Below the pieces are notes generated by a model that saw only the letters and a program-made list of their open reading frames with translations, was not told the DNA's origin and ran no database searches. A program made the position numbers and the translations under genes. From Streptomyces halobius (lineage in GTDB: Bacteria > Actinomycetota > Actinomycetes > Streptomycetales > Streptomycetaceae), in NCBI RefSeq assembly GCF_023277745.1, contig NZ_CP086322.1:3162001-3226000 (forward strand): a stretch of 64,000 bases of DNA, given 5' to 3'. Positions within the stretch are counted from its first letter, which is position 1, and each line of letters begins with the position of its first letter. Of this stretch, positions 618-44,380 are shown piece by piece.

Positions 618-3164
618 TCACTCCAGGGCGCTCTGCACCCCGCGGGCGACGGCCGCGGCCCGCTCGGCCGGCAGTGGGGCGCCCTCCGTGTCCGTGACAT
701 AGAAAGCATCCACGGCGTTGGCCCCGAGCGTGCTGATGTGCGCGCTGCGGACGCTGACCCCCGCCTCCTCCAACGCCCGCCCGATCCGGTGCAGCAGCCC
801 ATGGGCGTCCTGCGCGCGGACCTCGATGACGGTCGCGGTGCGGGACGTCCCGGGGGCGACGGTGACGCGGGGCGGCGGGGCGGGGACCGCGCGGGCGCGG
901 CGGGCGTAGGCGCGTTCGCGTTCGGCGAGGCGGGCGGGGATGTCGAGGGAGCCGTCGAGGGCGCGGACCAGGTCGGCGCGGAGCCGGACGGCCTGCGGCA
1001 GCGAGCCGTATTCGGCGGCCACCCGCCAGCTGAGGAGCAGGACGGGGCCCTCGCCGATGGGGTCGAGGGTGCGCAGATCGGCGGCGCGGACGGTGAGGCG
1101 GTGCAGGGCCAGCACACCGGCCGCGACGGCGAGCACGCCCGGCTGGTCCGGGACGGCGATGAGCAGTTCGACGCCGACCGGCTCCTGGCCGCCGTCGGGC
1201 GCGGGAGCGTCGTCGGCGGGCGCCTCGTCGCGGGGGTGCAGGGCCAGGACGGGGCCGCCGGTGCGGGCCGCCTCGATCGCCAGCCGCTCCTGCTCGGCGG
1301 TCGGCTCGTCCGTCGTACGGCCCTCCGGGACGGCCTCGCCGGCGAGCTGTGCCGCGACGCGTTTGACCAGGTCGGCGACGAGTCCGCCGCGCCAGGCGGA
1401 CCAGGCGGCGGGCCCGGTGGCGAGCGCGTCGGCCTCGGTCAGGGCATGCAGCAGTTCCAGGGTGCCCGCGCCGCCGACCGCGTCCGCGACCGCGCCGACC
1501 GTCTCGGGGTCGTCGAGGTCGCGCCGGGTGGCGGTCTCGACGAGCAGCAGATGGTGCCGTACCAGGGTGGCGATCACGGTGACATCGCGGGCGTCGAAGC
1601 CGAGCCGGGTGGCCACGTCGCGGGCGATGGTCTCGCCGGCCACCGAGTGGTCGCCGGGCCGGCCCTTGCCGATGTCGTGCAGCAGGGCGGCGGTCAGCAG
1701 CAGGTCGGGGCGGTGCACCCGACGGGTCAGCGCGGACGCCCGGACCGCGGTCTCGACGAGGTGACGGTCGACGGTCCAGGTGTGGACGGGGTTGCGCTGC
1801 GGACGGCAGCGGACGCGTTCCCAGTCGGGCAGCAGCCGCGTGATGAGGCCCTCGGCCTCCAGGGACTCCCATACGGGCACGGTGTGCGGGCCCGCGCCCA
1901 GGAGCGTGACCAGCTGCTCGCGGGCCTCGGCGGGCCAGGGCACGGGCAGCGGCCCGGCCGCGGCGGCCAGGCGGCGGACGGCGTGCGGGGAGAGCGGCAG
2001 TCCGGCCTGCGCGGCGGCGGCCGCGGCGCGCAGCACCAGCACCGGGTCGCGTTCGGGGCGGGCGGTGCGGGCCAGCACCGCCTCGCCGTCGAGTTCGACG
2101 ACGCCCTCGGCGAGCGGTGAGCGCTCCCCCTTGCCGGCGGTACGGCCGGACAGCAGCCCGCGCAGCGTGGGTTTGACGGACCGGGCCCGCAGAACGCGGC
2201 CGACCTCGCGCCAGGTGACGTCGGCGGCGTAGGAGAGGGTGCGGGCGGCTTCGTAGGTCTGCCGCAGCAGGGCGTCGGCGTCCAGCAGGCCGAGTGCCTC
2301 GGCGACCTGGGTCTGCTCCTGGAGGGAGAGCCGGTCGGTGGCGCGCCCGGTGACCAGGTGGAGCGCGTCGCGGGTGTCGAGCAGGCGGGTGCGGGCGGCT
2401 TCCAGGCCGTCGCGCGGGGCGTCGGCGAGCCAGGACGCGGCGACCGCCCGGAGCGCGGTGGCGTCCCGCAGCCCGCCCCTGGCCTCCTTGAGGTCGGGTT
2501 CGAGGAGGTACTGCAGTTCGCCGTGCCGGTCGGCGCGGTCCTGGCACAGGTCGTGGAGTTCCGGCAGCCGCTTGGGGGCGGCCGCGCGCCAGTCGGCGTA
2601 TGCGGCGGTGCGCAGGGCGGCGGTCAGGTCGGCGTCGCCGGCCAGGTGGCGGGCGTCGAGCAGGCCCAGCTGCACCTTGAGGTCCTCGCGGGCGGTGGCG
2701 CGGGCCTCGGCGGGGGTGCGTACGGAGTGGTCGAGTTCCAGACCGAGGTCCCAGACGGGGTACCAGAGGCGGTCGGCGAGGGCGGCGACGGCACCGGCGT
2801 CGGCGCTGCCGTCGTGCAGCAGGAGGAGGTCGAGGTCGCTGCGCGGGGAGAGTTCGCCGCGGCCGTAGCCGCCGACGGCGACGAGGGCGGCGCCGTGGAC
2901 GCCGGAGGCGCCGGCGGCGCCGGCCAGGAGCGCGCCGAGCCATGCGTCGGTGAGCCGGGCGAGGCCGGCGCGGCGGTCCGGGCCGGTCGGGGCGTCGTCG
3001 TGGAGGAGCCGCAGCCGGGCCGCCGGATAGCCGCCCTCGGGGGCGGGCGCGGGGGCGGTGTACTGGCCCGGTACTCCGCCGGGACCTGCCGTTTCCTCGA
3101 CGCTCTCCGTCAACTCGGGTGCTCCTTGGTCGTGTTGTCCCCCGCTGTCACAGATGTCCCCCAC
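618..3164 (-). CDS. glnD: PII nucleotidyltransferase / PII-removing enzyme GlnD
   Basis: Bifunctional enzyme that modifies PII under nitrogen limitation and reverses this when glutamine is high; in Streptomyces the modification is reported to be adenylylation rather than uridylylation. The 848-residue product has the nucleotidyltransferase signature GGYGRGELSPRSDLDLL at residues 98-114 with the metal-binding Asp pair, an HD hydrolase domain with LLHDIGKG near residue 495, and two ACT domains in the last 170 residues for glutamine sensing. It is the last gene of amtB-glnK-glnD, 126 bp after glnK across a strong hairpin. The first 45 residues are low complexity. A TTG about 17 codons downstream with GGAG before it is an alternative start. 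Confidence 0.95.
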   Translation of the reverse strand: MGDICDSGGQHDQGAPELTESVEETAGPGGVPGQYTAPAPAPEGGYPAARLRLLHDDAPTGPDRRAGLARLTDAWLGALLAGAAGASGVHGAALVAVGGYGRGELSPRSDLDLLLLHDGSADAGAVAALADRLWYPVWDLGLELDHSVRTPAEARATAREDLKVQLGLLDARHLAGDADLTAALRTAAYADWRAAAPKRLPELHDLCQDRADRHGELQYLLEPDLKEARGGLRDATALRAVAASWLADAPRDGLEAARTRLLDTRDALHLVTGRATDRLSLQEQTQVAEALGLLDADALLRQTYEAARTLSYAADVTWREVGRVLRARSVKPTLRGLLSGRTAGKGERSPLAEGVVELDGEAVLARTARPERDPVLVLRAAAAAAQAGLPLSPHAVRRLAAAAGPLPVPWPAEAREQLVTLLGAGPHTVPVWESLEAEGLITRLLPDWERVRCRPQRNPVHTWTVDRHLVETAVRASALTRRVHRPDLLLTAALLHDIGKGRPGDHSVAGETIARDVATRLGFDARDVTVIATLVRHHLLLVETATRRDLDDPETVGAVADAVGGAGTLELLHALTEADALATGPAAWSAWRGGLVADLVKRVAAQLAGEAVPEGRTTDEPTAEQERLAIEAARTGGPVLALHPRDEAPADDAPAPDGGQEPVGVELLIAVPDQPGVLAVAAGVLALHRLTVRAADLRTLDPIGEGPVLLLSWRVAAEYGSLPQAVRLRADLVRALDGSLDIPARLAERERAYARRARAVPAPPPRVTVAPGTSRTATVIEVRAQDAHGLLHRIGRALEEAGVSVRSAHISTLGANAVDAFYVTDTEGAPLPAERAAAVARGVQSALE

Positions 3165-3196
3165 GTTCCCGCCGTCTCCCCCGCCCCGTAGGTGCT

Positions 3197-3244
3197 CCGG
3201 CTCCGGCCTCCGGAGGCGATTGCCGCGCCGGAGGCCGGAGCCGG
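3197..3244 (-). terminator. Strong hairpin between glnK and glnD
   Basis: Perfect 17-bp inverted repeat (arms 3197-3213 and 3228-3244, starting CCGGCTCCGG) with a 14-nt loop, in the 126-bp gap between glnK and glnD. There is no T run, which is usual for Streptomyces hairpins. It may end most amtB-glnK transcripts or lower glnD expression relative to glnK; that role is inference. Confidence 0.7.
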
Positions 3245-3290
3245 GTCACTGGAGGACTCGGACGAGCCGGGCGTCCTCGGTGCAACGCGG

Positions 3291-4999
<1,709 letters not shown>

Positions 5000-5101
5000 C
5001 GGCGTCTCCTCGTCGTCGATGCGGCCCGTGCGGGCGTGTTTCTGGTGGGCCGACTTGGCCATGAGGTTGTCGCAGGGTGGTTTCCGCCATGCCTTACCGG
5101 T

Positions 5102-5148
5102 GTTTCACGACCGTGACGAAGACGGCGCCAGTGTTACGCCCCGGTGAA
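5102..5148 (-). promoter_or_regulatory. GlnR-type operator upstream of amtB
   Basis: Read on the amtB strand, 5117-5102 gives GTCAC, six bases, GAAAC, an exact match to the actinomycete GlnR a-box/b-box layout (gTnAc-n6-GaAAc). A weaker second pair at 5133-5148 (GTTAC-n6-GTGAA on the plus strand) lies 31 bp further upstream. The site is about 100 bp before the amtB start, where activation by GlnR under nitrogen limitation would be expected. Binding itself is inferred. Confidence 0.75.
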
Positions 5149-5262
5149 CTGCAAGATCAACACACGCCCGGCCGTTTCACTTATCCGAAACCGCCGCTTG
5201 AGTACCGAAACCACCGCTTGAGCAACCCCAACGGCGGGCAACCGCCTCCGCGAGTGGGGGCA

Positions 5263-5282
5263 CCCCCAGCGTCAGCTGGGGG
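5263..5282 (-). terminator. Hairpin downstream of nsdA
   Basis: Perfect 8-bp stem CCCCCAGC-GTCA-GCTGGGGG located 137 bp after the nsdA stop and before the amtB promoter. It probably protects the amtB promoter from read-through. Confidence 0.6.
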
Positions 5283-5418
5283 ACGGCGCCGGCTTGGGCG
5301 CAAAGAGGGGCCGCGACATCCGACCCGGCCACGGCTCCCACCCTCGTGACCAGGCGGCGGGGGAGCCGAGTCGGGCTGTACGGGGCGGGTGGCCGTGGCC
5401 GGGGGTCCTGGGGCGCGG

Positions 5419-6915
5419 TCAGCCGACCTCCGCTGCGTTCTCCGGCAGCTGACGGGAGAGCTCGTCGCCCAGCTGGATCACCTCGGCGACACCGCCGAAC
5501 TCCCGCGTCGCGGTGTCCACGGTCTTGCGCAGCCGGTTGTTGACCCGCTCCGAGCGGACCTGCCGGGCGAACGGAATGGCCTTCTGCGCCATCTCCGCGC
5601 AGGCTTCCGGCTCCTTCTGCAGCAGCCGCACCGTGGCCATGCCGATCAGATTGAGCGCATACGACCGCTGATGCTCGGAGTCCTCCCGGAAGAGGTCCAC
5701 GGCGCGCTCCATGACGGGCTCGGCGAGCGAGGCGTACGTGGGGCTGCGACCGGCCACATACGCCAGGTCGCGGTAGGAGTGGGCGTTCTCGGCGTTCAGC
5801 TCCGCCTCGGAGAAGAAGCGGATCCAGTCCGGATCGGGCTCGCCGGGCATGCAATCGGAGAAGGTGTCCTCGGCCATCCGGACGGCCCGCTTGACCTTGC
5901 CGGGCTGGCCCATCCCGGCGTACGCGCGCGCCTCCATCGCATACAACATCGCCTGGGTGCGTGGGGTGGCCGTCTCACGGCTGCCGTACTGGGCGAGATG
6001 GATCAGCTCCAGCGCGTCCTCCGACCGGCCGAGATGGATCATCTGGCGGCTCATGCTGGAGAGGATGTACGAGCCCAGGGGACGGTCGCCGGCTTCCTTG
6101 GAGGCGTGCAGCGCGAGCACGAAGTACTTCTGGGCGGTGGGCTGCAGCCCGATGTCGTAGCTCATCCAGCCGGCCAGCTCGGCGAGCTCGGCGGCGACCT
6201 TGAAGAGCCGCTTGGCGACCGGCTCGGGATGCGGCTCCTGGAGGAGGTCGGTGACCTCGTGCAGCTGGCCGACCACCGCTTTGCGGCGCAGCCCGCCGCC
6301 GCACTGCGCGTCCCACTGCCGGAACATCGCGGTCGTCGACTCCAGCAGATCCAGCTCCGGCTTGGACAGCCGGACGGCACGCCGCGGCCGGTCCGGCGAT
6401 GACTCCGCGTCGCCCGGCCCGGCGGGCACCGGCACCAGCCAGCGCTGCATCGGCTCGATGAGGGTCGGTCCGGCGGCCAGCGCCAGCGAGGTGCCCAGGA
6501 AGCCGCGGCGCGCGAGCATCAGGTCGCTGCGCGAGAACTCGCTGATCAGGCTGACCGTCTGCGGCCCGGCCCAGGGCAGGTCGACACCCGAGACGGACGG
6601 GGACTGGTGCGCGGAGCGCAGCCCGAGCTCCTCGATGCCGACCACGCAGCCGAAGCGTTCCGAGAACAGCTCGGACAGGATGCGCGGAATGGGCTCGCGC
6701 GGCTGCTCACCGTCCAGCCAGCGGCGCACCCGCGAGGTGTCGGTGCTGATGTGGTGGGCGCCCATCTGCCGCGCCCGGCGGTTGACCTGGCGCGCCAGCT
6801 CGCCCTTGGACCAGCCGCTGCGTACGAACCATGACCCCAACTGCGCGTTGGGACGCTTGACGGCGTCGGTGCCGCCTGACCCGCCGGAACCGGCGGTGCC
6901 GCCGTTGCCGCCCAC
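5419..6915 (-). CDS. nsdA: NsdA-type negative regulator of differentiation
   Basis: Streptomyces-specific regulator; in S. coelicolor loss of nsdA increases sporulation and antibiotic production. The 498-residue product begins with a Gly-rich leader, then a DNA-binding-like section (LGSWFVRSGWSKGELARQVNRR, with HISTDTSRVRRWLDGEQP, reminiscent of a Cro/XRE helix-turn-helix), then a segment around MLARRGFLGTSLALAAGPT, and a long alpha-helical TPR-like C-terminal half. The GTG at 6915 is chosen because GGGAGGGG sits 7 bp upstream; a GTG at 6954 is possible but has a weaker site. It is a single gene beside amtB, transcribed away from the prim-pol gene. The gene name rests on recognised sequence and neighbourhood. 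Confidence 0.88.
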   Translation of the reverse strand: MGGNGGTAGSGGSGGTDAVKRPNAQLGSWFVRSGWSKGELARQVNRRARQMGAHHISTDTSRVRRWLDGEQPREPIPRILSELFSERFGCVVGIEELGLRSAHQSPSVSGVDLPWAGPQTVSLISEFSRSDLMLARRGFLGTSLALAAGPTLIEPMQRWLVPVPAGPGDAESSPDRPRRAVRLSKPELDLLESTTAMFRQWDAQCGGGLRRKAVVGQLHEVTDLLQEPHPEPVAKRLFKVAAELAELAGWMSYDIGLQPTAQKYFVLALHASKEAGDRPLGSYILSSMSRQMIHLGRSEDALELIHLAQYGSRETATPRTQAMLYAMEARAYAGMGQPGKVKRAVRMAEDTFSDCMPGEPDPDWIRFFSEAELNAENAHSYRDLAYVAGRSPTYASLAEPVMERAVDLFREDSEHQRSYALNLIGMATVRLLQKEPEACAEMAQKAIPFARQVRSERVNNRLRKTVDTATREFGGVAEVIQLGDELSRQLPENAAEVG

Positions 6916-13773: not shown

Positions 13774-16700
13774 TCAGTGCAGGCGCTGGCTGATGACCTT
13801 CGACACACCGTCCCCCTGCATCGACACCCCGTAGAGCGCGTCCGCGACCTCCATCGTCCGCTTCTGGTGGGTGATCACGATCAGCTGGGAGCTCTCCTGG
13901 AGCTCCTCCATGATCCGGATCAGCCGCTGCAGATTGGTGTCGTCCAGCGCCGCCTCGACCTCGTCCATGACGTAGAACGGGCTGGGGCGCGCCTTGAAGA
14001 TCGATACCAGCAGCGCCACGGCGGTCAGCGACCGCTCACCGCCCGAGAGCAGCGACAACCGCTTGACCTTCTTGCCCGGCGGGCGCGCCTCCACCTCCAC
14101 CCCGGTGGCCAGCATGTCGTCCGGGTCGGTCAGGACCAGCCGCCCCTCGCCCCCGGGGAAGAGCCGCGCGAAGACGCCCTCGAACTCGCGGGCGGTGTCG
14201 TGGTACGCCTCGGTGAAGACCTGCTCCACCCGCTCGTCGACCTCCTTGATCACCTGCAGCAGGTCGGCACGGGTCTTCTTCAGGTCCTCGAGCTGTTCGC
14301 TGAGGAACTTGTGGCGCTCCTCCAGCGCCGCGAACTCCTCCAGCGCGAGCGGGTTCACCTTCCCGAGCTGCTGGTACGCCCGCTCCGCGGCCCGCAGCCG
14401 TTTCTCCTGCTCGGCCCGCACATAGGCGACCGGCTGGTTCCTCGGGTGCTCCGGGTCGTCCGGCAGCTGCTCGCCCTCGGCCGGCGGCGACGGCGGTACG
14501 GGCTGATCGGGCCCGTACTCCGCGATCAACCCGGCCGGCTCCACCCCCAGCTCCTCCAGTGCCTTGGTCTCCAGCTGCTCGATCCGCAGCCGCTTCTCCG
14601 CGCCCAGCACCTCGCCCCGGTGTACCGAGTCGGTCAGTTTGTCCAGCTCGGCCTTCAGTTCCCGGCCCCGGTTGCGCTCGGCCACCAGCGCCGCTTCGCG
14701 CTCCGCCTTGGCCCGCTCGGCGGCGCCGCGCTCCCCCTCGGCCCGTACGACCGACACCTCGACGTGCGCCAGCAGCTGGCGGGCACCGGAGGCCACCGCC
14801 CCGGCCACCGCCGCCTCGTGGCGCAGCCGGGCGCGCCGCCGCTCGGCCCGTGCCCGCGCCTCCCGCTCGGCGCGCGCGCCGCGGTCCAGCGCATCCGCCC
14901 GCCCGGCGAGCGCCTTCACCCGCTCCTCGTGCGTACGCGCCTGGAGCCGGGCCTCCATCTCCGTCTGCCGGGCGTTGGCCCCGTCGGCGGCCAGCCGGTC
15001 CCGTACGGACGTATCGGGCTCCTCGTCGCCGACGCCCGGGGCCTCCTGGGCCGCGGCGAGCCGCTCGGCCAGTTCCTCGGCCTCCTCGGTGGCCCGCAGC
15101 AGGGCCTTCTCGGCCTTGGCGGCCGCCGCACCGGAACGTTCCGCCTCGCCCGCCGCCGCCCGCGCCTGCCCGGCGAGCCGCCCCAGATCCCCCGCGATCT
15201 TGGACTTCTCCCGGTCCGCCGCGCGCCGCCGTTCGCCCAGCTCCTCGACCAGCGCGGCACATTCCGTACGCCGCTCCGCCGCCGCCCGCTGCGCCTCGGT
15301 GAGCTCCTCGCAGCGCTCCGCCAGTTCCGCCAGCTCCGCGGCCGCCTCGTCGACGGACGCCTGCACCTCCAGCAGACTCGGCGCGCCGGCCGACCCGCCC
15401 TGCGCGAAATGCGCCCCGAGCAGATCGCCCTCACCGGTCACGGCCATCAGCTCCGGACGCGCGGCCACCAGTTCCTCGGCGTCCTCCAGCGTCCCGACCA
15501 CCACCACGTCCCGCAGCAGCCGGGCCACCGCGGCCATCAACTCCTCCGGCCCGCGCACCAGTTCAGCGGCGCGCACGGGCGCGGAGCGGGGACCGGGCAC
15601 ACGGTGCCCGGACGCGCCGGCGGCACCCGCCGCCTCGCCGTCCCGGGGCGCACTTTCCCGGCCCGTCGACTGCGGCCCGATCACCGGCCGCTCCGGCCCC
15701 GCCCCGGCCCGCGCCGCCACGTCGGCCTCCCCTGCCGGGCCCGGCACCCGCGCCGTGTGCTCCGTGCCCACGGAACCCGCCGGACCACCGACGCGCCCGG
15801 CCTGCACACTCGACTCCCCCGGCTCACCGTCCACAGCAGTCCCGACAGCCTCCGCAAGCCCAGCCGTCTCGGAAACCGCCACGGCACCAGCGGCCGGCAC
15901 GCCCCCCAGCACCATCGCCGCCCGTCCCCCGTCCTGCTTCCGCAGCAGGCGGATGGCGTCGGCGGCGGTGGCCGGGCCGGTGACGGCGATGGCGTCCGCG
16001 GCCGCGCCGAGCGCCGCCGCGACGGGAATCTCGTAGCCGGGGGTGACCGTCAGCAGCTCCGCCGCCGGGCCGAGCAGGCCGGTGAGCCGGTCCGCGGCGG
16101 CCAGCAGCGCGCCGGTGCCGTCCTTGCGGCGCAGCCCGAGCGCCAGTGCGTCGTGCCGGGCGGAGGTCGCGGCGCGCTGGCGCTCCGCCGCGGTCAGCGC
16201 CTCGCGTGCGGCGGTCAGCGCGGCCTCCGCCTCCGCCAGCTCCCGCCGGGCCGCGTCGTGCCGGCCCGCGAGCTCCTCGTCGTCCGCGTCCAGCCCGTCG
16301 ACCTCGGCCTTCAGCTGCTCGTACGCCTCCTGGGCCGCGGCCGCCCGCTCCCGTGCGCCGTCCCGGGCCTCGGCCAGCCGGCCGATCTCCGCCTGGGCGG
16401 AGGCGGCCCGGCCGCGGGCCGCGGTGACCTGCCCGTTCAGCCGGGCGAGCCCCTCCCGCCGGTCGGCGATGGCGCGGGCCACATCCCGCAGCCGCCGCTC
16501 CTCCTCCGCCAACTGCCGCTCCAGCGCGGCACGGTGCTCGACGGTGTCCTCCAGCGCCCGGCTCGCCGCCTCCAGCGCGGCCTCCAACTCCGCCTCCTGC
16601 TCACGGATCCGGGCCGCCTCGCGCTCCATGTCCTCGGGGTCGCGCCCCTGCCGCTCGTCCGGCGGGGCCGGCGCAGCGCTCTTGACCCGCGCTTCGGCCA

Positions 16701-25603: not shown

Positions 25604-28600
25604 TCAGCCTTTCTCCAGATACTGCTCCCGTTCGTCGTCCAGCAGGGCGGCGAGCGCGATCCGCAGCTCCGGGCAGCCGGTCAGCTCGGGGTCGGCGGCG
25701 ACCAGTGCGGTGGCCTCCTCGCGGGCCGCCGCGATCACCTCCTCGTCGTCGATGACCGTGAGCATCCGCAGCGACGACCGGACGCCGGACTGCGCCTGCC
25801 CCAGGACATCGCCCTCGCGCCGCTGCTCCAGATCGATACGGGAGAGCTCGAAGCCGTCCAGGGTGGCGGCCACCGCGGCGAGCCGGGCACGGGCCGGGCT
25901 GCCCTCCGGCATATCGCTGACCAGCAGGCACAGGCCGGGCGCCGAACCCCGGCCCACCCGGCCGCGCAGCTGGTGCAGCTGGGAGACGCCGAAGTGGTCC
26001 GCGTCCATGATCACCATGACGGTGGCGTTCGGGACGTTCACACCGACCTCGATGACCGTCGTCGCGACCAGGACGTCCAGCTCACCGGCGGCGAACCGGC
26101 GCATCACGTCGTCCTTGTCGTCCGGGGCCATCCGGCCGTGCAGCACCGCCACCCGCAGGCCGGCGAGCGGTCCCCCGGTGAGCTGCTCGGCGACGTCGAG
26201 CACCGCGAGCGGCGGGCGCTTCTCCGCCACGTCCTCCGGTGAACTCGCCTTGGCCGCCGCGCTCTTGGCGCCCGCGCCCTTCTTGGTCCCCTTGGATGCC
26301 TCCTCCTCGTCGTCGCCGATCCGGGGGCACACCACATACGCCTGGTGCCCCGCCTCGACCTCTTCGCGGACCCGGTCCCAGGTCCGCGCCAGGAAGTGCG
26401 GCTTGTCCTTGGCGGGCACCACATGGCTGGCGATCGGCGAACGCCCGGCGGGGAGTTGGTCCAGGACGGAGGTCTCCAGATCGCCGAAGACCGTCATGGC
26501 CACCGTGCGCGGAATGGGTGTCGCCGTCATCACCAGGAGATGCGGTGTCTGCATCTCCCCCTGGGAGTGGCCCTTGCCGCGCAGCGCGTCCCGCTGCTCG
26601 ACGCCGAAGCGGTGCTGTTCGTCGACGACGACCAGGCCGAGGTCGCGGAACCGCACCTCGTCCTCGATCAGGGCGTGGGTGCCGATGACGATGCCGGCCT
26701 CGCCGGTGACCAGGTCGAGCAGCGCCTGACGGCGGGCGGCGACGCCCATGGAGCCGGTCAGCAGCACCACCTTCGTGCCGTGCTCGGCGACGCCCAACGT
26801 CCGCCCGTCGCCCACCACCGCCCTTGGGTCGAGACGCTTCGCGTCGCTGTGATGATGGGCCAGCTCCCCCATCATCTCGGTGATCGAGCGGTGGTGCTGC
26901 TGGGCGAGGACCTCGGTCGGCGCGAGCATCGCGGTCTGGCCGCCGCCGTCCACGACGCCGAGCATGGCGCGCAGCGCGACCATGGTGTTGTGCGTGACCG
27001 TGAAGTGGTCGGTCACATAGGCGCGGTCCGGGTGCGCGACGCTGATGCACTGGACGGGCTTGCGGCCGACGTACTCGATGGCCTGGACGGTGCGCCGGAA
27101 GCGGGCGTCGCCCAGGGGCCGCCCGGGGGGCGCGTCCGTCACCCGGGAGAGCGGGTACCCGTCCGGCAGTGCCACGGCGACGTCGTACCCGCCGCGCGAT
27201 CCGGCCGCGGGGACCGGGCGGACGCTGCCGCCCAGGGAGCGCACCAGCCAGCCGAGGTCATCGGCGAGCGCGGCGGTGGCCCCGCGGAACGCCGCGCCGT
27301 GGCCGGAGAACTCACCGCCCGCGTCCATCAGGCCCTGCACCAGGGCCAGCCGGTCCTTGACCGGTGCGTTCCGATAGGCGTCCGGGACCCGGCGCCCGTC
27401 GTGGGCCAGCGCCCTGCCCCGCTCATACGGATCGAGCGGCCGGTCCTCGCCCCCGTCGAGGTCCACCGGGGTGGCCGGGGCGATGGACCACTTGGGCCGG
27501 CTATCGGCGGTGCGCGGATCGGCGCGCAGCTCGCGGGTGGACAGCACCCGCTCCCCCGCGCCGTCGGCCCCGACGATCCACAGATGCTCGTCGTCGCACT
27601 CGACGGCGCTCCCGTCCGACAGGACCAGCCGCCACACCTCCCGCTCGCCCTGCGGAAAGACGCCGTCCACCACGGCGATCTCGCCGGTCGGCACCACCAC
27701 TTGGGTGCCGACGGCCATCTCCCCCATGGGCCGGAAGCCGCACGGGGTGAGCACCAGCGCGTCCAGCGGCTGCGCCTTGCCCGAGCCGACCTCGCCCTGG
27801 AGGAGGCGGTGCATGGGGTGCGCCGTCGCCAGGTCGTCGAAGATCTCCTTGCTGACCTTGCGCTGCCCCTCGGTGAGCGAGAAGGGCAGCCTGGAGTCGA
27901 AGTCGTCGAGAATGCCGCCCTTGACCAATTGCCGTGGCACGGCGGGGAGTTGGGTCTCGGCGAGACGGCGCCGGGCGAGCGCGACCTGGAGGACGAACGC
28001 CTCGTCCCACTTCAGCCGGGCGCGCGCGTCGGCGATATCGGCCTTGCTGCCCGGCCGGTGGATCTTCAGCAGCGCCTCGGTGAGCGGGACCAGGCCGCGG
28101 TCCTCGCACAGGGCGACCGGCAGCGGGTCGACGGCGTCCTGCGCGCTGGGCAGCACCGCGTCGACCGCCTTGGCGATCTTCCAGGAGGCCATCTGCTGGC
28201 AGGCCGGGTAGATCGGCAGCAGCTGGTTGGCGAAGGCGTCCACGGCGCCGCTGTCGGCGTCCCGGTCGAGCAGCTCGTACTCGGGGTGGGCGAGCTGGAG
28301 TTTGCGGTTGAACACGGAGACCTTGCCGGCGAACATCGCGCGGCGGCCCGGCAGCAGCTCCTTGTGCGGTTTGTGGATGCCCTTGCCGAAGAAGACCAGC
28401 CGGAGGCGGCCGCTGCCGTCGGTGAGGGTGACCTCCAGCCGCTGTCCTCTGCCGCCGTTGAACTTCAGTACGCGGGCGTCCTCGACCTGGGCGACGACCG
28501 TGACATGTTCGTCCAGGGGCAGATCGGCGAGGCGGGTGAGCTCGCCGCGCTCGGCATAGCGCCGGGGGTAGTGGTGCAACAGATCGCCGACCGTATGCAG

Positions 28601-28684
28601 GCCGAGATGCTCTGCCAGCACCTTCGCGGTGGTGCCGCCGAGGATTTTCTTCAGAGGTTCGTCGAGCGCTGCCACGTCGTCCAT
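25604..28684 (-). CDS. recG: ATP-dependent DNA helicase RecG, intein-interrupted precursor
   Basis: RecG remodels stalled forks and branched DNA. The precursor is 1026 residues; removing a 263-residue intein leaves 763, close to the usual size. The N-terminal wedge domain (VVAQVEDARVLKFNGG region) precedes the helicase core: Walker A GEVGSGK split after Lys303 and resuming at TMVALRAML, DEQH box VVDEQHRFGVEQR, TATPIPRT, and motif VI QLRGRVGRG. The C-terminal segment SRIDLEQRREGDVLGQ-QSG is typical. The host ATPase would be inactive until splicing. I chose ATG at 28684 (MDDVAALDEPLKKIL); an in-frame start at 28705 lacks family support. Confidence 0.96.
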   Translation of the reverse strand: MDDVAALDEPLKKILGGTTAKVLAEHLGLHTVGDLLHHYPRRYAERGELTRLADLPLDEHVTVVAQVEDARVLKFNGGRGQRLEVTLTDGSGRLRLVFFGKGIHKPHKELLPGRRAMFAGKVSVFNRKLQLAHPEYELLDRDADSGAVDAFANQLLPIYPACQQMASWKIAKAVDAVLPSAQDAVDPLPVALCEDRGLVPLTEALLKIHRPGSKADIADARARLKWDEAFVLQVALARRRLAETQLPAVPRQLVKGGILDDFDSRLPFSLTEGQRKVSKEIFDDLATAHPMHRLLQGEVGSGKAQPLDALVLTPCGFRPMGEMAVGTQVVVPTGEIAVVDGVFPQGEREVWRLVLSDGSAVECDDEHLWIVGADGAGERVLSTRELRADPRTADSRPKWSIAPATPVDLDGGEDRPLDPYERGRALAHDGRRVPDAYRNAPVKDRLALVQGLMDAGGEFSGHGAAFRGATAALADDLGWLVRSLGGSVRPVPAAGSRGGYDVAVALPDGYPLSRVTDAPPGRPLGDARFRRTVQAIEYVGRKPVQCISVAHPDRAYVTDHFTVTHNTMVALRAMLGVVDGGGQTAMLAPTEVLAQQHHRSITEMMGELAHHHSDAKRLDPRAVVGDGRTLGVAEHGTKVVLLTGSMGVAARRQALLDLVTGEAGIVIGTHALIEDEVRFRDLGLVVVDEQHRFGVEQRDALRGKGHSQGEMQTPHLLVMTATPIPRTVAMTVFGDLETSVLDQLPAGRSPIASHVVPAKDKPHFLARTWDRVREEVEAGHQAYVVCPRIGDDEEEASKGTKKGAGAKSAAAKASSPEDVAEKRPPLAVLDVAEQLTGGPLAGLRVAVLHGRMAPDDKDDVMRRFAAGELDVLVATTVIEVGVNVPNATVMVIMDADHFGVSQLHQLRGRVGRGSAPGLCLLVSDMPEGSPARARLAAVAATLDGFELSRIDLEQRREGDVLGQAQSGVRSSLRMLTVIDDEEVIAAAREEATALVAADPELTGCPELRIALAALLDDEREQYLEKG
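26987..27775 (-). other. In-frame class 3-type intein in the RecG P-loop
   Basis: 263 residues between GSGK and T of the Walker A motif, starting AQPLDALVLTPCG and ending YVTDHFTVTHN with Thr as the +1 residue. Position 1 is Ala, so there is no normal N-terminal nucleophile. The features of class 3 inteins are present: Trp66 in block B (DDEHLWIV), Cys243 in block F (KPVQCISVAHPD) and Thr261 two residues before the terminal Asn. Block B also has His64. A single LAGLIDADG-like motif (LVQGLMDAGGEF, residues 145-156) remains, with no clear second one, so the homing endonuclease is probably degenerate. Base composition resembles the host gene, suggesting long residence. Confidence 0.93.
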
Positions 28685-43872: not shown

Positions 43873-43877
43873 TGACG

Positions 43878-43950
43878 TACCCCCGACCGGATTCGAACCG
43901 GCGCTACCGCCTTGAGAGGGCGGCGTGCTAGGCCGCTACACAACGGGGGC
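43878..43950 (-). tRNA. tRNA-Glu (CUC), copy 1
   Basis: 73 nt forming a cloverleaf: acceptor GCCCCCG, D arm, anticodon stem CCGCC/GGCGG with loop CTCTCAA (anticodon CUC), T loop TTCGAAT, discriminator A. CCA is not encoded. Sequence identical to copy 2. Confidence 0.96.
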
Positions 43951-43992
43951 CTGTTTTGCTGCAGTTGAGCCGTGTCGCAAGGACACACTGCG

Positions 43993-44064
43993 CTGGGCTA
44001 CCAGGACTCGAACCTAGACTAAATGAACCAGAATCACTCGTGCTGCCAATTACACCATAGCCCA
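43993..44064 (-). tRNA. tRNA-Gln (CUG), variant copy
   Basis: 72 nt, acceptor TGGGCTA/TAGCCCA, anticodon loop TTCTGGT, anticodon CUG. The anticodon stem is AGTGA/TCATT with one G-T pair, compared with ACTGA/TCAGT in the other Gln copy; the acceptor stem differs by a compensated C-G swap. Confidence 0.93.
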
Positions 44065-44080
44065 TGGTGGTATAGACCAG

Positions 44081-44153
44081 TACCCCCGACCGGATTCGAA
44101 CCGGCGCTACCGCCTTGAGAGGGCGGCGTGCTAGGCCGCTACACAACGGGGGC
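44081..44153 (-). tRNA. tRNA-Glu (CUC), copy 2
   Basis: 73 nt, identical to copy 1, 16 bp from the variant tRNA-Gln; probably part of one precursor transcript. Confidence 0.96.
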
Positions 44154-44214
44154 TCTAGCGATCCTGCGTGAGAGGCAGCGGGTGCGACCCGACCACCTCC
44201 CCGGGAAGGATCTG

Positions 44215-44287
44215 TACCCCCGACCGGATTCGAACCGGCGCTACTGCCTTGAGAGGGCAGCGTGCTAGGCCGCTACACAACGGGGGC
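44215..44287 (-). tRNA. tRNA-Glu (CUC), copy 3
   Basis: 73 nt; differs from copies 1 and 2 by one compensated pair in the anticodon stem (CTGCC/GGCAG instead of CCGCC/GGCGG). Anticodon CUC. Confidence 0.96.
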
Positions 44288-44308
44288 TTTGCAGATGAGC
44301 TCTGCGAG

Positions 44309-44380
44309 CTGGCCTACCAGGACTCGAACCTAGACTAACTGAACCAGAATCAGTCGTGCTGCCAATTACACCATAGGCCA
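44309..44380 (-). tRNA. tRNA-Gln (CUG), standard copy
   Basis: 72 nt, acceptor TGGCCTA/TAGGCCA, anticodon stem ACTGA/TCAGT, loop TTCTGGT, anticodon CUG. It is the first gene of the five-tRNA array in the direction of transcription. Confidence 0.96.

Follow-up and report, generated by a model that had tools for sequence, protein, structure and literature searches.

In a 64,000-nt stretch of Streptomyces halobius DNA (the window; all positions count from its first letter), the recG gene very probably carries a class 3 intein between the Lys and Thr of its Walker A motif (the K/T site; a slash marks a junction throughout). The element appears to have reached a late stage of the homing cycle and to be kept by trapping rather than by homing.

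The recG frame starts with ATG (MDDVAAL...) and stays open through the entire intein segment. Its product matches the NCBIfam model NF008167 over the full length (1071.7 bits against a cut-off of 995) and contains the Pfam domains RecG wedge, OB, DEAD, Helicase_C and RecG_dom3_C; its nearest named relatives are RecG proteins of Streptomyces, with S. platensis among the closest. Precursor residues 304-566 form an insert located exactly between the Lys and Thr of GEVGSGK/TMVAL. The insert reads AQPLDALVLTP...HFTVTHN (263 residues) and is followed by TMVALRAML; RecG without it comprises 303 + 460 = 763 residues. A preliminary description of this DNA had placed the insert at 26987..27775, with Trp66, Cys243, Thr261 and Asn263 as key residues and 763 residues left after removal, and proved exact on each point. 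No Pfam model matches the intein segment of the window. The features of the locus are as follows.

25604..28684, minus strand: recG precursor gene, 1026 aa (763 aa after the presumed splicing); NF008167 RecG with Pfam RecG_wedge, DEAD, Helicase_C and RecG_dom3_C
27776..28684, minus strand: N-extein, 303 aa, wedge domain and start of the helicase domain, ending ...LLQGEVGSGK; empty-site relatives run straight into T(M/L)V
26987..27775, minus strand: class 3-type intein, 263 aa, A1 to N263
27566..27775, minus strand: splicing blocks A-B, residues 1-70; residues 3-68 match the 6bs8 and gp41-1 inteins; pN/pS 0.215 in the window clade (the 12-row clade of this copy)
27593-27595, minus strand: Asp61 codon (DxxH motif), invariant in 71/71
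27584-27586, minus strand: His64 codon (DxxH motif), invariant in 71/71
27578..27580, minus strand: Trp66 codon, W of the WCT set, invariant in 71/71
27101..27433, minus strand: LAGLIDADG endonuclease remnant, residues 115-225, aligned to full-length copies of 336-339 aa
26987..27082, minus strand: splicing blocks F-G, residues 232-263, from motif invariance and alignment to solved inteins
27047..27049, minus strand: Cys243 codon, predicted block F nucleophile (F:4), invariant in 71/71 and aligned with Cys118 of 6bs8
26987..26995, minus strand: Thr261-His262-Asn263 (the THN end), invariant in 71/71
25604..26986, minus strand: C-extein, 460 aa and stop, first residue Thr+1

To assign the class we compared 71 aligned RecG inteins, 70 from the same genus and one from another. 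Ala1, Asp61, His64, Trp66, Cys243, Thr261, His262 and Asn263 are invariant, Thr+1 follows the intein in every row, and none of the 71 contains a stop codon. Residue 1 is thus non-nucleophilic (Ala rather than Cys, Ser or Thr) throughout. W66, C243 and T261 occupy the block positions B:12, F:4 and G:5 of the Trp-Cys-Thr (WCT) triplet of class 3 inteins (PMC5050341); D61 and H64 form a block B DxxH motif in place of TxxH, as in the class 3 intein DnaBi1 of Mycobacterium smegmatis, for which residue numbers are available (PMC6195587); and the penultimate H262 and terminal N263 precede Thr+1, a position held by Ser, Thr or Cys in this class. The WCT residues alone are no proof of activity, since a Trp- and Cys-bearing version engineered from the class 1 intein gp41-1 barely splices (PMC7664689), and the class call accordingly draws on the whole residue set.

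Comparison with solved inteins points in the same direction. Residues 3-68 of the window intein match the gp41-1 intein (1.3e-6) and the DnaB intein of PDB entry 6bs8 (3e-5), and a profile built from 51 RecG inteins matches both (7.3e-13 and 5e-10, respectively) and also two more DnaB chains, 6rix and 6riy. When the profile is aligned with 6bs8, W66, C243 and THN of the RecG intein fall on W67, C118 and THN, the numbering of DnaBi1 in PMC6195587; we take 6bs8 to be DnaBi1 of M. smegmatis, as H65, W67, C118 and N139 fit. These sequence profiles suggest a HINT fold; Pfam Hint_2 matches 3 of the 51 RecG inteins. The invariant motifs, the alignment to solved inteins and the empty sites in relatives described next together support the preliminary description, in which a class 3-type intein splits the RecG Walker A motif and starts splicing from an internal Cys.

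Among 392 sampled genomes of the genus (the window genome counted), 70 have a RecG intein match at E values up to 1e-20 and 322 have none at that threshold, whereas a DNA pattern for this Walker A motif was found in 389. We read recG in all 70 occupied genomes (18 search loci and 52 more) and in 48, later 8 more, genomes without a match. In every one of the 70, the intein opens with Ala directly behind GSGK and closes with THN ahead of TMV. By contrast, 47 of the first 48 no-match genomes and all 8 later ones run GSGK directly into T(M/L)V. One empty-site locus, L119, has a recG frame broken just after the site and was excluded from the trees. The insertion site that the preliminary description proposed to seek in Streptomyces RecG is thus occupied recurrently, so the insert is not due to chance. 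An insert unique to this genome was considered and rejected, given these 70 genomes and the 173 loci that encode a relative of the intein in a scan of species-representative genomes. The best 80 of these 173 loci are all RecG genes with the intein at the K/T site (78 assigned by script, two from Actinomadura by eye), from Streptomyces, Actinacidiphila, Actinomadura and Saccharothrix; one of the 80, L243, has HFW in place of HLW and keeps the Trp. Met stands at +2 in 71/71 occupied sites and in 37/55 empty ones (Fisher 5e-8), a test that ignores relatedness, and we therefore do not claim it as proof of a homing-site preference.

Some relatives deserve separate mention. In Saccharothrix, four loci (L220-L223) encode RecG inteins of 225 aa, the smallest at this site among the best 80 loci, and another (L218) encodes one of 342 aa with both LAGLIDADG motifs. 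In one protein (P0094, 564 aa) the RecG ORF stops inside the intein, upstream of blocks F-G; the gene may be split or frameshifted, or the assembly may be at fault. Since its ORF ends there, P0094 was left out of the set of 119 intein ends.

RecG is a single-copy protein in this genome: the second-ranked match, at 40-43% identity, lies in a 1212-aa ORF that is probably Mfd. With 263 residues separating the Lys and Thr of Walker A, the precursor should be unable to bind ATP. Because the insert splits Walker A and RecG has no second copy, splicing is very probably obligatory for ATP binding and RecG activity, and the earlier proposal that every RecG molecule must splice is sound for a genome with one RecG. 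The residue pattern suggests that splicing does take place in the cell. In class 3 chemistry, a branched intermediate at block F forms first and transfer to the +1 residue follows (PMC5222942). Applied to RecG, the precursor would fold and Cys243 would attack the Lys303-Ala1 bond, helped by His64, Thr261 and the pocket of Trp66, to give the block F branched intermediate. The N-extein would then pass to Thr+1, Asn263 would cyclise, and an acyl shift would yield the native GEVGSGKT P-loop in the 763-residue RecG. Thr+1 would thus serve both as a splicing nucleophile and as the Walker A Thr. We propose that the intein persists because imprecise loss would destroy the sole RecG, precise loss presumably being rare, and not through homing. 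Trapping of this kind explains the data, and the intein itself is most probably without a function.

The state of the endonuclease region fits this proposal. Among the 71 inteins, 44 are 336-339 aa long and 27 span 247-327 aa; both LAGLIDADG motifs pass a strict pattern in 36 of the 44 full-length copies and in 3 of the 27 shorter ones. In the window copy, motif 1 reads GRALAHDG and motif 2 VQGLMDAGG; both are broken and neither passes the strict pattern. The spacing between Tyr117 and Arg142 is 24 residues, compared to 93-94 in full-length copies, so that ~70 residues are gone. The Pfam LAGLIDADG model PF14528, present in 20 of 51 RecG inteins, was searched for and is absent from the window copy. 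A homing-competent LAGLIDADG intein has two motifs with acidic residues and a domain between them, and the window copy lacks this arrangement. On the intein tree, which was built without the stretch between the motifs, short and long inteins are separated by 8 changes, of which supported branches force 5 (bootstrap 7-9); this count does not separate gain from loss. The window copy looks like a late stage, in which the homing endonuclease is lost or degenerate and the splicing machinery is apparently intact.

Patterns of selection were compared using pN/pS, which is here obtained from pairwise counts summed over related sequences and is not a model-based test. Blocks A-B of the 12-row window clade have a pN/pS of 0.215 (codon bootstrap 0.109-0.371), close to the values of 0.221 and 0.198 for the two exteins; the endonuclease remnant of that clade (residues 112-225) reaches 0.606 (0.491-0.726), whereas the endonuclease part of the 44 full-length copies gives 0.227 (0.175-0.278). 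This contrast argues for drift in the homing part, with the N-terminal splicing blocks kept under as much constraint as RecG itself. Blocks F-G, which are short and have a wide interval, give 0.433 (0.183-0.953) in the window clade versus 0.102 in full-length copies and may have loosened to some extent.

Intein presence is patchy across the genus, as for a homing element. On a RecG extein tree of 118 rows it requires 28 changes, and supported branches force at least 22 of these; with only 47 empty genomes on the tree, the genus as a whole has probably seen more. Shuffled labels gave a mean of 37.0 changes and in 0 of 500 cases as few as 28. Presence is thus less scattered than in the shuffles and is partly inherited, so that both descent and mobility contribute. 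Distances among inteins correlate with those among exteins (Spearman 0.72-0.78). In a few pairs the intein is more alike than the extein (L091/L092, 0.959 vs 0.909; L069/L070, 0.952 vs 0.909; all 338 aa), suggesting lateral transfer. The same holds for pairs with L081, whose extein branch is, however, unusually long. Of the 66 pairs within the window clade, none shows this excess. L090, whose N-extein is cut by a contig end, and the long-branched L081 and L038 were kept in the extein tree.

The intein tree and the first extein tree both group the same 12 rows, which constitute the window clade. On that first tree, with its 47 empty rows, the clade seemed fully fixed for the intein (12/12), a view weakened when a search with the C-extein found two near intein-free genomes. 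One, G058, falls outside; the other, G348 (L160), groups with the 12 (13-row set 100/99), as sister to them or inside, so that 12 of the 13 genomes sampled from the window RecG clade have the intein. The AU test gives p 0.41 for the 12 occupied rows as one clade. The N-extein tree places G348 outside the 12, weakly (80/64), and the C-extein tree places it inside with support (10-row set 96/97). G348 may have lost the intein, may have undergone recombination or partial replacement within recG, or may have branched off before the gain.

Other readings of the insert have to be weighed against a trapped, splicing intein. That it is an ordinary RecG-specific insertion domain retained in the mature protein is hardly credible: the reading frame is open throughout, but such a domain would leave the Walker A loop interrupted between its Lys and its Thr, and intein blocks A, B, F and G, endonuclease-bearing relatives and precise empty sites all speak against it. 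It is very unlikely that the intein is dead or merely cleaves, with its motifs kept, poor splicing, and RecG lost or low as a result. The drift of the endonuclease remnant and a pN/pS interval for blocks F-G that nearly reaches 1 would agree with such decay, yet all 71 copies are free of stops and keep every listed catalytic residue, and both exteins are under purifying selection in the window clade, including the C-extein downstream of the insert (0.198).

The intein could also be a domesticated switch, in which slow or stress-sensitive splicing sets the amount of active RecG and selection keeps the intein after the death of its endonuclease. There is a precedent in M. smegmatis, where H2O2 affects splicing of the class 3 DnaBi1 intein (PMC6195587). 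Retention in nearly all sampled members of the window RecG clade, continued constraint on blocks A-B, and splicing residues that stay invariant across all the length changes are what a switch would lead us to expect; moreover, 69/71 copies have a Cys at position 60, four residues ahead of His64, that might form a redox pair with Cys243. However, the need for RecG alone predicts constraint on splicing, the 322 genomes without a match include the close genome G348, and Cys48, the disulfide partner in DnaBi1, falls on Val47 here. We therefore regard a domesticated switch as unlikely. Its specific form, in which the endonuclease-dead intein of the window clade is retained to control fork repair after translation and oxidation of Cys243, perhaps via Cys60, sets the level of ATP-competent RecG, is likewise improbable. 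A regulatory switch is possible but not supported, as no result favours it over simple persistence; we thus retain trapping as the preferred explanation.

The window copy shares its host protein and K/T insertion point with the RecG inteins of Streptomyces, Actinacidiphila, Actinomadura and Saccharothrix among the best 80 of the 173 loci. It differs from them in its endonuclease: other RecG inteins range from 225 to 342 aa and most full-length ones carry both LAGLIDADG motifs, whereas the window copy has neither. DnaBi1 resembles it in P-loop insertion, Ala1, DxxH, WCT, THN and the loss of the endonuclease; however, its host is DnaB, its +1 residue is Ser, it has 139 residues, and its redox partner Cys48 has no Cys counterpart in the RecG intein. 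The preliminary description had allowed that RecG inteins might already be catalogued, and Table 1 of PMC5874633 indeed names RecG as an intein host, without describing the class there. Class 3 P-loop inteins are likewise already known (PMC5050341, PMC6195587). Within the open-licence PMC papers searched, where RecG appeared once as a host, we found no account of which class RecG inteins belong to, nor of how they have spread and decayed in Streptomyces.

Together, the RecG inteins form an unusually clean natural series at one site in one genus, comprising empty sites, full-length copies with a homing enzyme, and several shrunken lines with the splicing residues kept. This series makes the question of whether endonuclease-dead inteins are trapped or functional testable by comparison. 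The many class 3 inteins with Thr+1 might also find use in protein ligation.

Outside RecG, kin of the intein are distant. Searches matched 321 phage records, all below 60% identity (top-ranked ~34%), many of the 30 listed being annotated as helicases or terminases, and 27 plasmid records, the top-ranked (46%) being a helicase-related protein of Rhodococcus. With top-ranked identities of just 34% and 46%, no recent donor is visible among phages or plasmids. In 21 of 25 viral contig loci the match directly follows Gly-Lys. On a tree of 45 class 3-type inteins, 15 RecG rows fall in a supported 18-row clade (100/97) together with inteins from a viral contig (L250), a Rhodococcus plasmid (L273) and an Actinomycete-class genome (L049). 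These three resemble the RecG inteins in their AQP(L/M)D start, HLW, Cys and THN, but lie in other host proteins and are 353-391 aa long; the L273 host is annotated as helicase-related, and those of L250 and L049 appear to be of helicase type. Such kinship fits the phage origin proposed for class 3 inteins, as cited in PMC5050341. The Saccharothrix RecG inteins group, weakly (81/75), with a viral helicase intein, and the intein may have entered RecG once or more than once.

The genome of the window encodes at least five class 3-type inteins in four proteins, RecG included. The nearest same-genome paralogue found lies in a VirD4/TraG-type coupling protein (L007 8950-14073, plus strand; 1708-aa ORF with Pfam T4SS-DNA_transf and TraG-D_C). 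It has class 3-type residues and is 47% identical over residues 1-68 and 44% over 128-263, but it occupies an N/T site rather than Walker A and belongs to a different clade. The same locus (2246-6607, plus strand; C1 at ~0.85 Mb) holds a 1454-aa AAA+ ORF (Pfam AAA_2), which we read as ClpB-like, with two class 3-type inteins, one per Walker A Lys; their junctions are GSGK/LLPLG...PTHN/T and GTGK/FCID...VTHN/T, and Hom_end and LAGLIDADG_3 matches are present. A further locus (L008 2551-5553, minus strand; C1 at ~4.93 Mb) encodes DnaB with a class 3-type intein of 417 aa at the P-loop (MGK/S).

In other Actinomycete-class genomes, class 3-type inteins with an AQP start occur at MRGR/AQP...THN/TLN, followed by LDEAQN (L045, L046, L048, L050-L052 and L054-L059), in host proteins that are presumably PhoH-like; the five of these placed on the tree cluster together, next to a viral row. 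Elsewhere in the window, five tRNA genes, three for Glu(CTC) and two for Gln(CTG), cluster at 43877-44380 on the minus strand, and ARAGORN, but not Rfam, calls a tRNA-Pro at 14985-15085.
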